Assembly (NCBI RefSeq): GCF_003149455.1
Contig: NZ_QFFK01000003.1
Coordinates: forward strand, 372,001-436,000
Length of the DNA: 64,000 nt
Direction: 5' to 3'
Origin: Chitinophaga deserti
GTDB taxonomy: Bacteria > Bacteroidota > Bacteroidia > Chitinophagales > Chitinophagaceae
Shown here piece after piece: positions 33,087 to 39,967 of this stretch. The notes under the pieces were generated by a model that had not been told where the DNA came from, did no database searches, and worked only from the letters and a program-made list of their open reading frames with translations. The translations under genes were made by a program, and so were the position numbers. How positions within the stretch are numbered: the first letter of the stretch is position 1; every line of letters begins with the position of its first letter.

Positions 33087-35441
33087 TTATTGTTCGTCGA
33101 AAACGGGGCCCAGTTCAGGACCTTCGTTCTGTTCTGACTGGGAAGGACGGGGCCCGCGGTCATTACGGTCTCCACGATCACCACGGTCGGGACGGTCGCC
33201 ACGATCACGACGATCGCCACGGTCTCCACCGCCACGGCGGTCTCCACGGTCACCACCACGATCACGACGATCTCCGCGGTCACCACGATCGCCACGTTCT
33301 TCACGTTCGGGGCGTTCTACATAACCTTCGGGTTTCGGCATGAGCACACGGCGGCTCAGTTTGAACTTACCGGTTTTAGGATCGGTGCCTACCAGTTTCA
33401 CTTTCACTTTATCGCCTTCGCTCAGCACGCCGTCCATTGTCTCAAGACGTTTCCAGGAAACTTCAGAGATGTGGAGCAGGCCTTGTTTGCCGGGGAGGAA
33501 TTCAACGAATGCGCCGTAAGGCATTACGCTTTTTACTACGGATTCGTATTCTTCACCAACTTCGGGCTGGGAAACGATGCCTTTCACCCATGCAACTGCC
33601 TTATCGAGGTTTTCTTTCTGCGTAGCGAAGATGGAAACTTCACCATGCTGGTTAACTTCTTCAATATTGATGGTAGTGCCGGTTTCGCGCTGGATTTCCT
33701 GAATCACTTTACCGCCGGGTCCGATAACGGCACCGATGAATTCGCGGTCGATGATCAGTTTCTCCATACGTGGAGCATGCGGTTTCGGTTCAGGACGTGC
33801 AGTTTCGATGGTGTTGTACATGCCATCGAGGATGTGCAGGCGGCCCTGGCGGGCTTGTGCAAGCGCAGCGCGCATAACATCCATGCTGAGGCCGTCTACC
33901 TTAATGTCCATCTGCACACCGCAGATACCATCGCGGGTACCGGTTACTTTGAAGTCCATGTCGCCGAGGTGATCTTCGTCGCCGAGGATGTCGCTCAGTA
34001 CGGCCCATTTGCCATCGGAAGCGCGGGAGATGAGGCCCATTGCGATACCGGATACGTGTTTGGGGATGGGAACACCAGCGTCCATGAGGGCGAGGGAACC
34101 AGCGCAAACAGTAGCCATGGAAGAGGAACCGTTGGATTCGAGGATATCGGAAACTACACGCACGGTGTAAGCGTAATCGCTGCCGGGCATCATGATCCGG
34201 AGGGATCTCATTGCCAGGTTACCGTGGCCCACTTCGCGACGGCCGGGGCCGCGCATCATTTTCACTTCTCCTGTAGAGAAGGGAGGGAAGTTGTAGTGGA
34301 GGATAAATTTAACGTAGTTGGAAACGGCGGCGGATTCTACCAGCAGTTCGTCATCGGGCGTGCCGAGGGTAACGGTGGTGAGGGATTGCGTTTCGCCGCG
34401 GGTGAACAGTGCGGAGCCGTGAGGGCTGGGCAGCAGGTCTACTTCCATGGCGAGGGGGCGAACCTGATCGAGTACACGGCCGTCGAGACGGACAGACTGA
34501 TCGAGGATCATGTTACGCACCACTTCTTTTTCCAGTTTGTGGAAGTATTTACCTACGAGCGGGGCGTCTTCTTCAGGGAGTTCGCCGAGGTGCTCTTTCA
34601 GTTCTTCTTCTATTTTGCTGAAAGCTTCGCTGCGTTGGTGTTTACCGAGGGCAGATTTAGAAACTTCGAGGATTTTGCCGGAAGCAAAGGCATCGATTTT
34701 CGCTTTCAGTTCTTCGTTGGCGTAAGGCAGGTTGAAGGTGCGCTTGGCGGGGTTACCGATAAGACCGCGGAGTTCTTCCTGGGCTTTTACCTGGATGCGG
34801 ATGGCGTCGTGTGCAAGTTCGATGGCCTTTACCAGGTCTTCTTCCTGACACTCTTTGGATTCGCCTTCCACCATCATGATATTTTTCTCTGTAGCGGCAA
34901 CGATGAAGTCCATATCGGCTTCAGCGAGCTGTGTACGGGAGGGATTGATGATGAATTCACCATTTACACGGGCGATACGCACTTCGGAGATGATCTCCTG
35001 GATGGGAACGTCGGAAACGGCGAGAGCTGCAGACGCTGCCAGTGCGGCAAGAGCGTCGGGCATTACTTCTTTATCAGAAGAGATGAGGGTTACCAGCACC
35101 TGAACATCGCAAAGGTAGTCATCGGGGAACAGGGGGCGCAGGGCACGGTCGATGAGTCGGGAAACAAGCACTTCAGAATCGCTCAGCTTGCCTTCACGTT
35201 TGAAGAAGGAACCGGGGATACGACCTGCAGATGCAAATTTCTCCTGATAGTCTACGGTGAGGGGAAAGAAAGATTGCCCGGCTTTGGGCTCTTTATTGGC
35301 CACCACCGTAGCCAGCAGAATACAGTCTCCGCAGCGAACGGTCACGGCTCCATCGGCCTGGCGGGCCATCTTGCCGGTCTCGATCGTCACTTCGCGACCT
35401 CCGCCTATATCAAATTTAACCGAAGTAGGTGTGAGATTCAT
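33087..35441 (-). CDS. pnp: Polyribonucleotide nucleotidyltransferase (PNPase)
   Basis: 784 residues from ATG 35441. Two RNase PH-like cores (SFFPLTVDYQEKFASAGRIPGSFF in pieces; FPPFSTGEVKMMRGPGRREVGHGNLA in pieces), a KH domain (REFIGAVIGPGGKVIQEIQ) and an S1 domain (YGAFVEFLPGKQGLLHISEV). The last 69 residues form an extra tail dominated by GDR/RGD repeats (residues 716-764), then an acidic end. The enzyme degrades RNA phosphorolytically and is in the RNA degradosome. Upstream rpsO is in the same direction but separated by a terminator. Confidence 0.96.
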   Translation of the reverse strand: MNLTPTSVKFDIGGGREVTIETGKMARQADGAVTVRCGDCILLATVVANKEPKAGQSFFPLTVDYQEKFASAGRIPGSFFKREGKLSDSEVLVSRLIDRALRPLFPDDYLCDVQVLVTLISSDKEVMPDALAALAASAALAVSDVPIQEIISEVRIARVNGEFIINPSRTQLAEADMDFIVAATEKNIMMVEGESKECQEEDLVKAIELAHDAIRIQVKAQEELRGLIGNPAKRTFNLPYANEELKAKIDAFASGKILEVSKSALGKHQRSEAFSKIEEELKEHLGELPEEDAPLVGKYFHKLEKEVVRNMILDQSVRLDGRVLDQVRPLAMEVDLLPSPHGSALFTRGETQSLTTVTLGTPDDELLVESAAVSNYVKFILHYNFPPFSTGEVKMMRGPGRREVGHGNLAMRSLRIMMPGSDYAYTVRVVSDILESNGSSSMATVCAGSLALMDAGVPIPKHVSGIAMGLISRASDGKWAVLSDILGDEDHLGDMDFKVTGTRDGICGVQMDIKVDGLSMDVMRAALAQARQGRLHILDGMYNTIETARPEPKPHAPRMEKLIIDREFIGAVIGPGGKVIQEIQRETGTTINIEEVNQHGEVSIFATQKENLDKAVAWVKGIVSQPEVGEEYESVVKSVMPYGAFVEFLPGKQGLLHISEVSWKRLETMDGVLSEGDKVKVKLVGTDPKTGKFKLSRRVLMPKPEGYVERPEREERGDRGDRGDRRDRGGDRGDRRGGGDRGDRRDRGDRPDRGDRGDRNDRGPRPSQSEQNEGPELGPVFDEQ

Positions 35442-35472
35442 ACTTGTGTGAGGATTAATAAGGTACACATAC

Positions 35473-35508
35473 AAAAAAACTATTCCCAACCAGAATAGTT
35501 GGGAATAG
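35473..35508 (-). terminator. Intrinsic terminator between rpsO and pnp
   Basis: CTATTCCCAAC and GTTGGGAATAG form an 11-bp stem, followed on the minus strand by T7. It is the natural end of the rpsO transcript; partial readthrough into pnp is likely (known from E. coli). Confidence 0.88.
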
Positions 35509-36870: not shown

Positions 36871-37242
36871 ATGAAAACACTGACAAAAGCGGAAGAACAG
36901 ATTATGCAGGCCCTCTGGGCACTGGGCCCTTCTTTCGTGAAAGACATTATTACCGTGCTGCCGGAGCCGCAGCCGCATTACAACACTGTTTCCACACTCG
37001 TGAAGATCCTGGTCGATAAAGGATTTGTAGACTACAAGGCCTTTGGCAAAAGCCACCAGTATCATGCGCTTATTACTAAGGATGAATACAGCAGCCGCAC
37101 CGTTAAAAATCTTGTAAAAGGCTATTTCGACGGCTCGTTCTCCAACCTCGTTTCGTTTTTCGTGAAGGAAAAAGACATGTCTGTTAACGACCTCGAGCAC
37201 CTGCTGGAGGAAATCCGCAAATCCAAAAACAAGGAATCATGA
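36871..37242 (+). CDS. BlaI/MecI/CopY family transcriptional repressor
   Basis: 123 residues. Winged-helix N-terminal domain with LTKAEEQIMQALWALGPSFVKDII, PHYNTVSTLVKILVDKGFVDYK and the HQYHALITKDEYS segment; a helical dimerisation tail follows. The family represses genes and is inactivated by cleavage by a partner M56 protease. The next gene encodes that type of partner and overlaps the stop codon by 4 bases (ATGA). The operator-like dyad upstream fits autorepression. The true inducing signal is unknown. Confidence 0.93.
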   Translation: MKTLTKAEEQIMQALWALGPSFVKDIITVLPEPQPHYNTVSTLVKILVDKGFVDYKAFGKSHQYHALITKDEYSSRTVKNLVKGYFDGSFSNLVSFFVKEKDMSVNDLEHLLEEIRKSKNKES

Positions 37243-38546
37243 GCCCGATCCTCATTTATCTCCTGAAAGCTGCCGTATGCTCCGGCATACTGTTCGCTTA
37301 CTACTGCGTGGCGCTCCGTAACCAGCGCCAGCACCGTTGGAACAGGGTATACCTGCTGGGCCTTACCGGTGTCAGTCTTTTATTACCCCTGCTGCGCATC
37401 CCCCTGCCGGGAGGCACGCCTGACTCTGCTGCGCTGTTCAGTTATTCCGCCGCAACCTTTGAAGTCAGCAACAATACCCCGGGCTCAGGCTTCACTGCTT
37501 TGCAATGGGCTTACGTTGCATATGCGGCCATAGCTATCCTGCTGCTGGTACGTTTCGGATATGCCATCTGGCAGCTGCGCCGCCTCATCCACGGAGGCCG
37601 AATGCAGGAAGGACCTAATTACCGCCTCGTTCTCCACCCTTCCGTTCCATCGCCCTTCAGCTTTTTCCGTTTCATATTCTGGAACCCCGGCACAGAGCAA
37701 CATTCCCCGGAAAGCCGGCATATGCTCCAGCATGAGCAGGTGCATGTGCGCAAAGGCCACAGCTGGGATACCCTTTTCATGGAACTGGTAACGGCCATCT
37801 GCTGGGTAAACCCGTTCTTTCATTTTGTAAAAAAGGAACTGTCGGTAGTTCATGAGTTTGAAGCCGATGAGGTGCCGGCTGGCAACGGCCAGTCTGCCGA
37901 ATATGCTGAAAACCTCCTGCGCCAGGCTCTCCACGCTCCTTCCGCCCATTTATTCATTCACCATTTTTCCCAACCTCCTGTAAAACGCAGAATCATGATG
38001 CTCACCCGCAACACCCGTACCCGTTATGCCGCCGCACGCAAGCTGATGGCGCTCCCCCTCGCAGCCGGGCTCCTCTTCGCAGTTTCCTGTGTTCAAAAAG
38101 ATGAAGCCAACATCACCGCACAGGAAAAGCAGGTCCTGAACACCCCCAGCAACGTAATTTTCACGGAGGTAGAGCAACCGCCCACCTTCGCTGGTGGCAG
38201 TACCGCCATGAACAAATACCTGTCAGAAAGCATCAAATACCCTGAAGATGCCGTTGAGAATGGCGTTTCCGGCACCATCTTCGTAACATTCATTGTCCGT
38301 GCTGATGGCAGCATCGATGAAGTAAAGACGGTTGGCGACAAAATAGGCTCCGGACTTGAAGAAGAATCCATCCGGGTGGTGCGTGAAATGCCCAAATGGA
38401 AACCCGGCGTGCAGAATGGCAGAAAAGTGGATGTATTGTTCAACATCCCCATCCGCTATACGCTGCAGGAGGATGAAACCAGCAAAACCACCTCTTTCTG
38501 GCCCGTTGAGCAATCTTACTGGCCCGGCAAAAACAAGGAATGTTAA
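37239..38546 (+). CDS. M56 (BlaR1-like) membrane metalloprotease with TonB C-terminal domain
   Basis: 435 residues. Membrane helices near residues 3-20, 37-57 and 88-108. The M56 zinc motif HEQVH is at 165-169 with the downstream glutamate in HEFEADE (206-211). After another hydrophobic segment (about 268-285) comes an external TonB C-terminal-type domain (about 312-415: PPTFAGGSTAMNKYLSES, YPEDAVENGVSGTIFV, PKWKPGVQNGRKVDVLFNIPI). In BlaR1 the external domain senses beta-lactam; here a TonB domain takes that place, so the signal is unknown. It probably cleaves the BlaI-type repressor. Confidence 0.93.
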   Translation: MSPILIYLLKAAVCSGILFAYYCVALRNQRQHRWNRVYLLGLTGVSLLLPLLRIPLPGGTPDSAALFSYSAATFEVSNNTPGSGFTALQWAYVAYAAIAILLLVRFGYAIWQLRRLIHGGRMQEGPNYRLVLHPSVPSPFSFFRFIFWNPGTEQHSPESRHMLQHEQVHVRKGHSWDTLFMELVTAICWVNPFFHFVKKELSVVHEFEADEVPAGNGQSAEYAENLLRQALHAPSAHLFIHHFSQPPVKRRIMMLTRNTRTRYAAARKLMALPLAAGLLFAVSCVQKDEANITAQEKQVLNTPSNVIFTEVEQPPTFAGGSTAMNKYLSESIKYPEDAVENGVSGTIFVTFIVRADGSIDEVKTVGDKIGSGLEEESIRVVREMPKWKPGVQNGRKVDVLFNIPIRYTLQEDETSKTTSFWPVEQSYWPGKNKEC

Positions 38547-38569: not shown

Positions 38570-38597
38570 GGCGCCGCAGCAATGCGGCGCCTTTTTT
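38570..38597 (+). terminator. Terminator after the M56 gene
   Basis: GGCGCCGC and GCGGCGCC form a perfect 8-bp stem with T6 after it. Confidence 0.88.
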
Positions 38598-38674
38598 ATG
38601 CCCGGCAGCCATTACCGGGAAGCCCCCCCTTTACTCCGGCCTAACTGCAGAACAACTCCCTGTTTTAATAAGAG

Positions 38675-38792
38675 ATAAGCCGCCCTTAAGCCGCCTATAA
38701 GCCGCCCATATCCCGCCCATAAGCCGCCCCTATATAGAGGCGGCTTATCTACGGCTTATCCCCGGGATATATCCGGGTTTAGGGCGGGTTAG
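38675..38792. repeat. Symmetric 11-bp-period inverted repeat array
   Basis: Left half: five contiguous 11-bp units (ATAAGCCGCCC, TTAAGCCGCCT, ATAAGCCGCCC, ATATCCCGCCC, ATAAGCCGCCC) at 38675-38729. Centre: the 8-bp palindrome CTATATAG at 38730-38737. Right half: five units in the opposite orientation (AGGCGGCTTAT, CTACGGCTTAT, CCCCGGGATAT, ATCCGGGTTTA, GGGCGGGTTAG) at 38738-38792. The total is 55 + 8 + 55 bp. The right half is more diverged. No gene is present here. Confidence 0.9.
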
Positions 38793-38888
38793 GTATTAGG
38801 CAGAATTACCTGAACCTGCCTCATAAGGGGCTTTTGTGCCATTATGGAAATGCTGAACAGGAGCATCTATTTTGAAAGCACATCCGTT

Positions 38889-39854
38889 ATGATGCACCGG
38901 TACCTCCCTATTGCCTGTATACTGATCACCTCCTCCTGTTTGCTACGGAGTAATTCAGCATCCTACATCCAAATACAATTGAGGAATACTGCTTCAAGGG
39001 AATATGCGCCAATTGCCTACGATGCCCCTCGTATGCCGGAAGCAGTGTATCCCGGCGGGCCCGATTCCCTCCGCGCCTTCTTCATCCGGCATTTCCGATA
39101 TCCGGCGGAAGCGATCAGGGAAAGTGCAGGCGGGAACGTTACGGTTAGCTTTTATCTGGATAAAAAAGGAAGCATTCATAACATGCGGGTTTGTAGTTGC
39201 CCCCATGACACCGGATTGGAAGACGAAGTGCTTCGTGTAAGCCGTAAAATGACTTTATGGGAAGCCCCTGTATTCGAAGGGTATGAATATGCTTCCGTGG
39301 TAAACATGGTAGTGTCAATTCCCTGTTATGTACAAAGCAGTGCGAAACAGACAGATCTCCCTCCTGATTATTTTCATGTAAGCTGGAGCACTTCTTCACA
39401 TATCCATAGCATTTTGTTGCCGCGCTCAAAAAGCCATTATTGCCCATCTATCATCAGTTTAGACACTCCTTTGGAAGACTCACTGGTTATTGCTGAGGAC
39501 TTTGAACCTATGGAAATCCCCAAAATCCCATACAGTGATATTATCTGCTGCTTTCCTCCAGAGCCCAGATTCCCTGGCGGCGAAGATTCTCTTCGCGCAT
39601 TTCTGCAGCAGCACATGAAATATCCGGAGGAAGCTTTGGCGCATGAAAAATCGGGCACTGTGTTTGTCCGGTTTACGATCTCAGAAACCGGACAAACGGA
39701 AGATCATAAAATCCTTAGCGCACCCATAGGTTTTGGATTGGAAGAAGAAGCGCTGCGTGTGGTGAGATTAATGCCCAATTGGATACCCGGTACATCAAAA
39801 GGCAAAGCGGAAAAAACGCTTTACACTTTACCCATCCGCTTCTCAATGGATTAG
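38889..39854 (+). CDS. Secreted protein or lipoprotein with two TonB C-terminal-type domains
   Basis: 321 residues from the ATG at 38889 (MMHRYLPIACILITSSC; an earlier ATG at 38844 adds 15 residues without features). A signal sequence with a possible lipid-attachment cysteine opens it. Two copies of a TonB C-terminal-like domain follow: YPGGPDSLRAFFIRHFRYPAEAIRE..., and FPGGEDSLRAFLQQHMKYPEEALAHEKSG..., each ending in LEDEVLRVSRKM- or LEEEALRVVRLM-type helices. The same domain ends the M56 protein just upstream, so the genes may be related by duplication. It is flanked by the 11-bp-period arrays. Function unknown. Confidence 0.75.
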   Translation: MMHRYLPIACILITSSCLLRSNSASYIQIQLRNTASREYAPIAYDAPRMPEAVYPGGPDSLRAFFIRHFRYPAEAIRESAGGNVTVSFYLDKKGSIHNMRVCSCPHDTGLEDEVLRVSRKMTLWEAPVFEGYEYASVVNMVVSIPCYVQSSAKQTDLPPDYFHVSWSTSSHIHSILLPRSKSHYCPSIISLDTPLEDSLVIAEDFEPMEIPKIPYSDIICCFPPEPRFPGGEDSLRAFLQQHMKYPEEALAHEKSGTVFVRFTISETGQTEDHKILSAPIGFGLEEEALRVVRLMPNWIPGTSKGKAEKTLYTLPIRFSMD

Positions 39855-39890: not shown

Positions 39891-39967
39891 TAAACCTGCT
39901 GCAATAGCGTTCTAATCGCGCTGTAATCGTACTGTACCAATACTGTACCAATACTGCATCTGTACTG
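39891..39967. repeat. Seven-unit tandem array with 11-bp period
   Basis: Contiguous units TAAACCTGCTG, CAATAGCGTTC, TAATCGCGCTG, TAATCGTACTG, TACCAATACTG, TACCAATACTG and CATCTGTACTG, each 11 bp. The ending CTG and a T at the start of most units are the conserved part. No gene covers it. Confidence 0.85.

Follow-up and report, generated by a model that had tools for sequence, protein, structure and literature searches.

An inverted array of 11-bp units in Chitinophaga deserti belongs to a dispersed intergenic family that looks like a small mobile DNA element

The window considered here, a stretch of 64,000 nucleotides from Chitinophaga deserti, contains a 118-bp array (38675-38792) in which five 11-bp units, an 8-bp palindrome and five inverted 11-bp units follow one another, and the locus raises the question of what kind of element has such a design. 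The left-arm units start at 38675, 38686, 38697, 38708 and 38719 and read ATAAGCCGCCC, TTAAGCCGCCT, ATAAGCCGCCC, ATATCCCGCCC and ATAAGCCGCCC; beyond the centre, the inverted units from 38738 to 38792 read AGGCGGCTTAT, CTACGGCTTAT, CCCCGGGATAT, ATCCGGGTTTA and GGGCGGGTTAG. An earlier note on this DNA had given the arithmetic as exactly 55 + 8 + 55, which is borne out by these unit coordinates, by Tandem Repeats Finder (left arm 38675-38729: period 11, 5.0 copies, score 82) and by an inverted-repeat search, which returned a 65-nt pair with 71% complementarity and a gap of 0. The units are contiguous, without unique spacers between them, and thus do not form a CRISPR array. The parts of the array and its surroundings are listed in Table 1.

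Table 1. Features of the array and its neighbourhood, with positions in the window.
Feature	Coordinates	Strand	Remarks
Upstream neighbour gene, Peptidase_M56 + TonB_C	37239..38546	+	Context only
Terminator-like hairpin and T tail, 3' of the upstream gene; array further downstream	38570..38591	+	Terminator scan
Left flank, weakly conserved	38631..38672	+	0.54-0.86 bit/column in four 11-base blocks; background 0.1-0.2
AG dinucleotide, sharp left edge of the conserved core	38673..38674	+	AG in 15/15 own copies; conservation falls immediately upstream
Strong (left) arm, five 11-bp units, core TA..CC	38675..38729	+	Near-identical among the 15 own copies
8-bp palindromic centre CTATATAG	38730..38737	.	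6-9 bp in other genomes
Weak (right) arm, inner inverted units R1-R2	38738..38759	-	Conserved among copies
Weak (right) arm, outer inverted units R3-R5	38760..38792	-	Mostly locus-specific, 11-bp register kept
Downstream neighbour gene, TonB_C	38844..39854	+	Context only

A 22-bp two-unit pattern, with up to three mismatches, matched the C. deserti genome (G000; 6.33 Mb, 23 contigs) 56 times (25 forward, 31 reverse) and its reversed control pattern not once, and the array is therefore not a product of chance. Nor is it the single feature that had been described: it is one of 15 dispersed, intergenic copies in this genome, a number that rules out a unique cruciform or other single-locus feature, and its family is mobile in one relative. 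The conserved core of these copies has its sharp left edge at AG-ATAAGCCGCCC; left arm, centre and R1 are nearly identical among them, R2 and R3 fairly so, and the outer right units vary by copy with the register kept. None of 56 array copies in three genomes (15 in C. deserti, 14 in G053 and 27 in G044) overlaps a called gene, so that the family is short, non-coding, dispersed and multi-copy in the manner of a MITE. By the calls of a home-made gene finder trained on the window, 38 of the 56 have a called gene on either side, and their gaps (5 convergent, 19 tandem, 14 divergent) fall into classes much as other gaps in the same loci do (5 convergent, 25 tandem, 10 divergent). The lack of a convergent bias, together with the terminator-like hairpin already present between the upstream gene and the array (one of two such sites, vs 0.7 expected from shuffles), led us to reject the array as the terminator of that gene.

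No neighbour family common to most of 65 compared loci was seen among neighbours annotated in part, the widest being a family of large ORFs found at five C. deserti loci out of 15 (L012, L013, L014, L016 and L019). Proteins homologous to one another (263-288 residues from stop to stop; 32-39% identity) are encoded near the array at L009, L070, L086 and L113, in four genomes; L070 is the orthologue of L009 in the relative G035, and the L086 and L113 sites are otherwise without match. A neighbour gene common to L009, L086 and L113 was set aside, being confined to these three loci (four with L070). A sequence of approximately 85 bp, with three copies next to the array of L022 and one next to that of L020, constitutes a second repeat family; the right flank shared by L020 and L022 was accordingly rejected as an element end.

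A DNA search found the array in 15 of 79 Chitinophaga genomes, our own included. With a covariance model built on 41 of 45 copies (L060, L065, L072 and L073, with altered unit number or register, were left out), the array was found in at least 39 of the 79, again own included, and in at least 26 of 294 genomes drawn from the family (at least 25 of 293 without our own), representing at least 14 of 101 genera; the figures are lower bounds with rough E-values, as scoring was limited to the 12-45 best candidates of each genome. Forty of the 79 genus genomes gave no match among the best 45 candidates per genome, which counts against the reading of the array that we favour below. Copies number 9-27 per genome among eight genomes counted. 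No match to the array was found in PLSDB or INPHARED at E 1e-5, and none in IMG/VR to the two-unit pattern; looser patterns found 42 viral stretches with three units, 11 of them with four, and none of the 42 held two good inverted units (the best, 12/14 in L233, had no further units). A phage or plasmid origin was rejected on these results. A rule of position relative to the replication origin was also dropped: dnaA was placed in seven genomes and the G053 copies look depleted around it and around its antipode, a pattern not followed by G016 and G044.

The letters of the unit differ among genomes: it reads ATAAGCCGCCC in C. deserti, ATAACCCGCCT in G053, ATAACCCGCAG and ATATCCCGCCT in G044 and ATAACCCATAT in G014, and outside the genus ATATCCCGAGG in G181 and, in a third genus, ATAAGCTACCT in one copy of G197. 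The 11-bp period and the inverted half, whose absence from related strains would have refuted the original description, are kept in other copies and species, as is the contrast between a strong and a weak arm, and the description thus withstands its own check. A script that counted units assigned exactly five to the strong arm in 104 of the 115 copies and gave centres of 6-9 bp. The constancy of unit number is due in part to the search, as the copies were found with a 5 + 5 model and, outside G000, G035, G053 and G044, the loci read were those with the better scores. The script counts whichever arm is longer, regardless of orientation, and its errors go in both directions: L065 and L072 are scored as five, although the arm corresponding to the strong one of their orthologues has three and four units, respectively, whereas L081 is scored as six and has five. 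Changes of unit number in 11-bp steps have occurred in L060, L065, L072 and L073. Among 572 units, T2 is conserved in 99%, A3 in 94%, C6 in 98% and C7 in 95%, with positions 9-11 variable, figures that are raised by the loose pattern required for counting. The left flanks of L107, L109 and L114, which form part of the ATAACCC[A/G]TAT group of copies, carry a small inverted repeat of their own, GCGCTACTATAGCGC.

Mobility was demonstrated in one species, that of G044. Three of its 27 copies (L129, L132 and L152) lie inside units of 284-410 bp (410, 299 and 284 bp, respectively, between the ends) that have TIRs of the GGTCGTGTA/TACACGACC type on both sides, one mismatch allowed, and short direct repeats. 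Both ends were thus found in 3 of the 14 copies specific to G044 and in none of the 13 shared with G053. A single GGTCGTGTA-type end accompanies three more of the specific copies (L127, L128 and L133), and a single end lies 232-284 bp from the core in two of the 13 shared ones (L122 and L155), probably by chance. Eight G044 sites were first compared with their predicted G053 counterparts, and six could be read: relative to the empty sites L139 and L141, clean insertions of 410 bp (L129) and 301 bp (L132) are present, L130 proved to be shared, L134 corresponds to an insertion-like gap of 191 bp with no recognisable ends, and L128 and L133 have other DNA at the counterpart. At L129 the direct repeat ATTTCGC stands on both sides and in single copy at the empty site, at L132 the repeats are imperfect (GCCTTTAG/GCCTTAGG), and at L152 7 of 8 bases agree (GAATTATC/GAATGATC). 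Target site duplication, as judged by comparison with empty sites, was accordingly found in G044 only. Two facts count against a MITE-like reading here, namely the imperfection of the direct repeats in two of three cases and the failure to recognise, by eye and by flank comparison, any TIRs or direct repeats in the C. deserti copies. Several insertion-sequence families generate duplications of 7-8 bp, and for that reason we assign the G044 element to none of them.

A search of G044 with a 99-bp right-end query returned, below E 1e-6, array copies and no separate element; no autonomous partner with the same ends was found by this query, to which a partner sharing the short TIR alone would be invisible. 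In the G044 element the core is internal: 72-191 bp separate it from the left end and 90-97 bp from the right one. Such a position is unusual for transposase sites and counts against the reading favoured below. A near-perfect hairpin, CACAAGGGATTAAAGTGATTTT/AAAATCACTTTAATCCCTTGTG, occupies L132:4419-4465, in the part of this G044 element that separates the array from the right end.

According to a review (PMC2229807), some small bacterial mobile repeats of the MITE type carry protein-binding or RNA motifs. The array resembles the MITEs treated there (Correia/NEMIS, ERIC and RUP) in being short, non-coding, dispersed and intergenic, with TIRs and direct repeats in G044. It differs from them in that its core is an internal, phased 5 + 8 + 5 structure which is in register across genera and stays where the ends are lost, and no partner transposase was found. 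In view of the insertion, ends and direct repeats seen in one relative, the element may be filed loosely with MITEs. Its copies are also dispersed, extragenic, palindromic and present in both orientations, like REP/BIME sequences with RAYT transposases (PMC2817692, PMC3733652). Unlike those sequences, the array measures 118 bp rather than 20-40 bp, is built of 11-bp tandem units and has 15 copies rather than over 100; its edge bears no GTAG/CGTC tag, so that with its 11-bp unit and 118-bp core it is no REP/BIME palindrome. A RAYT-linked REP was rejected, as PF01797 (Y1_Tnp) has no match in the C. deserti genome, compared with matches in 5 of 14 control genomes. No published name for the element was found in titles and abstract openings, a scope outside which most subscription journals and preprints lie, and the family looks like one of so far unnamed, small mobile DNA elements.

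G035, which is C. pinensis isolate 3 (LR632930.1; 14/14 named loci 100% identical over 3.6-6.1 kb), has a copy at the orthologous site of all 15 C. deserti copies, with flanking alignments of more than 1 kb at 84-96% identity; the C. deserti site that matches the 16th G035 copy holds other DNA and gives no empty-site information. In 11 full-length orthologous pairs, the core diverges by 0.047, compared with 0.075 and 0.100 among paralogues, and the outer units by 0.215, compared with 0.381 and 0.417, and are hence locus-specific. C. deserti and G053 have no sites in common, isolated neighbour matches of 31-46% identity being all that was found.

A different pattern was observed between G053 and G044, which have 13 sites in common. 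There, core divergence is 0.198 between orthologues and 0.204 between non-orthologues, whereas paralogues of the two genomes diverge by 0.103 and 0.143; the outer right units retain no signal of orthology (0.52 vs 0.55). At all 13 loci, 10-12 of 12 G044 paralogues are closer to a G044 copy than is its orthologue; in G053 the number is 5-12 of 12, with the lowest values, 5 and 6, at two loci. Because orthologues differ like random copies and paralogues are closer, these divergences demonstrate, for this one species pair, concerted evolution in place, in which the copies changed letters together and kept their positions. We infer that gene conversion is the homogenising process; coevolution with a binding protein could mimic it. 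Homogenisation is not universal, as five G197 copies that were read include at least three unit types, a finding that counts against our preferred reading. The G053-G044 pair offers a natural case of concerted evolution in dispersed bacterial repeats, which the shared loci and empty sites allow to be dated.

We consider it improbable that the family is a purely selfish or inert repeat, with a geometry inherited from the source element and read by no chromosomal protein. The mobility in G044, the loss of ends at old sites, the divergence of the outer right units between G044 and G053 orthologues and the stepwise changes in unit number would all be expected of such a repeat. However, drift is seen in flanks and outer units, whereas the strong arm, centre and R1-R2 remain homogeneous and the count of five units is kept both at old shared sites (in all 27 G044 copies) and in other genera. 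Far less probable still is an operator array of a regulon in which regulator and sites coevolve. Operators made of 11-bp direct repeats are known for PhoB-type regulators, and positions are conserved between related species; but the neighbours that were read share no theme, the sites of C. deserti and G053 differ, and the gaps are not promoter-specific.

The earlier note had further suggested that the array would form a long imperfect hairpin as RNA and a cruciform or phased protein-binding platform as DNA. As RNA, the plus strand folds at -61.1 kcal/mol (z -3.4 vs shuffles) and the minus strand with z -2.7; as DNA, the plus strand gives z -4.1, with 2 of 200 shuffles as good. Across 41 copies, 68.6% of cells in the 57-pair stem as a whole are paired, compared with 67.5% in shuffles (1/500), and the covariation score is 0.085, compared with 0.067 in shuffles (0/500 reach it) and 0.013-0.055 in slid structures, a score that the relatedness of the sequences alone can give. 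Resolved by unit pair, covariation is present in G053 (L5-R1, z 3.0; L4-R2, z 2.0) and missing from C. deserti (z -0.8 and -2.4); C. deserti and G035 combined give z -2.5 for L4-R2 and +2.8 for L3-R2. Among 88 copies, the L4-R2 tails beat both the all-copy and the within-genome shuffle (0/300) and the L5-R1 tails the all-copy shuffle only. The variable positions of L3-R3, L2-R4 and L1-R5 gain nothing over the within-genome shuffle, L1-R5 positions 4-5 and the L3-R3 tails exceeding the all-copy one. In these three pairs, the TA..CC core is complementary in 83, 76 and 56% and the tails in 24, 24 and 28%, respectively, the latter no more than with partners shuffled within genomes. The register of R1-R2 against the left units lies above shuffles in G053 (0/500) and G044 (12/500) but not in G000 (500/500) or G035 (234/500).

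The hairpin thus stands as regards folding, the plus strand being better than shuffles, but its pairing covaries only at L5-R1 and L4-R2 in G053, neither in C. deserti nor in the outer units, and a single full-length RNA hairpin is unsupported in the outer arms. That the transcribed array acts as an RNA element (an mRNA stabiliser, an RNase III site or a small RNA) is, in our estimation, unlikely. Besides the folding scores and the covariation of the whole stem and inner pairs, compensatory pairs are visible in L081, L088, L113 and L114, and the A-C mismatches of the plus strand, which exceed G-U in all five unit pairs, would be G-U on the minus strand, so that they do not speak against an RNA from that strand. 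In A-form RNA, too, a helical turn comprises 11 bp. On the other side, templated copying between arms can equally produce inner covariation, the plus strand has no G-U excess, the gaps resemble other gaps, and a promoter scan, itself not suited to Bacteroidota, found no sigma-70-like promoter. Rfam gave no match at gathering score in six loci, and in the window between 37000 and 40500 there was one unrelated, sub-threshold match away from the array.

The platform alternative fits the conservation pattern best, since an 11-bp-phased motif that is kept without pairing points to protein contacts with a putative binding array, whose inner palindrome may also contribute dyad symmetry. A point against it is that no candidate for the protein was found. 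The explanation we judge rather probable is a small, non-coding, non-autonomous MITE-like element of Chitinophagaceae with such a phased array as its conserved core. The family occurs as dispersed intergenic copies, has a 5 + about 8 + 5 geometry in relatives and is retained for a long time at orthologous sites; the function of the array is one that we infer. The core that the copies share probably serves the putative protein as a landing platform, and such a platform could work as follows. First, each unit, TA-[A/T][G/C]-CC, would hold a single subunit of a DNA-binding protein, once per 11 bp or about one helical turn. Second, five subunits per arm, facing each other across the centre, could assemble into one defined nucleoprotein complex. 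The putative protein might be the element's own mobilising enzyme or a host nucleoid- or segregation-type protein. Ectopic gene conversion and occasional new insertions would keep the copies alike.

In unit design the array resembles parC of plasmid R1, a centromere which is bound by ParR and has ten direct 11-bp repeats split in two around a promoter (PMC5016525, PMC9426499). The array likewise has ten 11-bp units in two blocks, within the range of tandem iterons (about 10-20 bp); it differs in that its blocks are inverted, its spacer is 6-9 bp and it occurs in many copies on the chromosome. The partly annotated neighbours of the 65 loci included no par operon (motor plus centromere-binding protein) that was recognised. 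Somewhat doubtful, and put forward as a tentative proposal, is that the array could be a nucleoprotein-assembly site of a new chromosomal class, in which 11-bp units in helical phase, arranged as two pentamers that face each other, act like a parC-type centromere or nucleoid anchor in dispersed form; it would have spread in MITE-like fashion, be held at 9-27 copies in the eight genomes counted and be re-homogenised within a species together with a cognate protein. The geometry of five units, 6-9 bp and five units recurs in several genera, and in related species the letters change together and positions stay constant; if a protein reads the array, a pull-down with one 118-bp probe could identify that protein.

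Other repeats were seen in the window. A degenerate 9/18/27-bp repeat (33165-33305) lies within the 3' end of a long minus-strand gene, an 800-aa ORF (33087-35489) that has an arginine/glycine/aspartate-rich tail and appears polynucleotide-phosphorylase-like from a reading of its sequence. At 39930-39956, after the gene ending at 39854, a perfect 11-bp direct repeat, TACTGTACCAA, is present in 2.5 copies and looks like the operator of a regulator.
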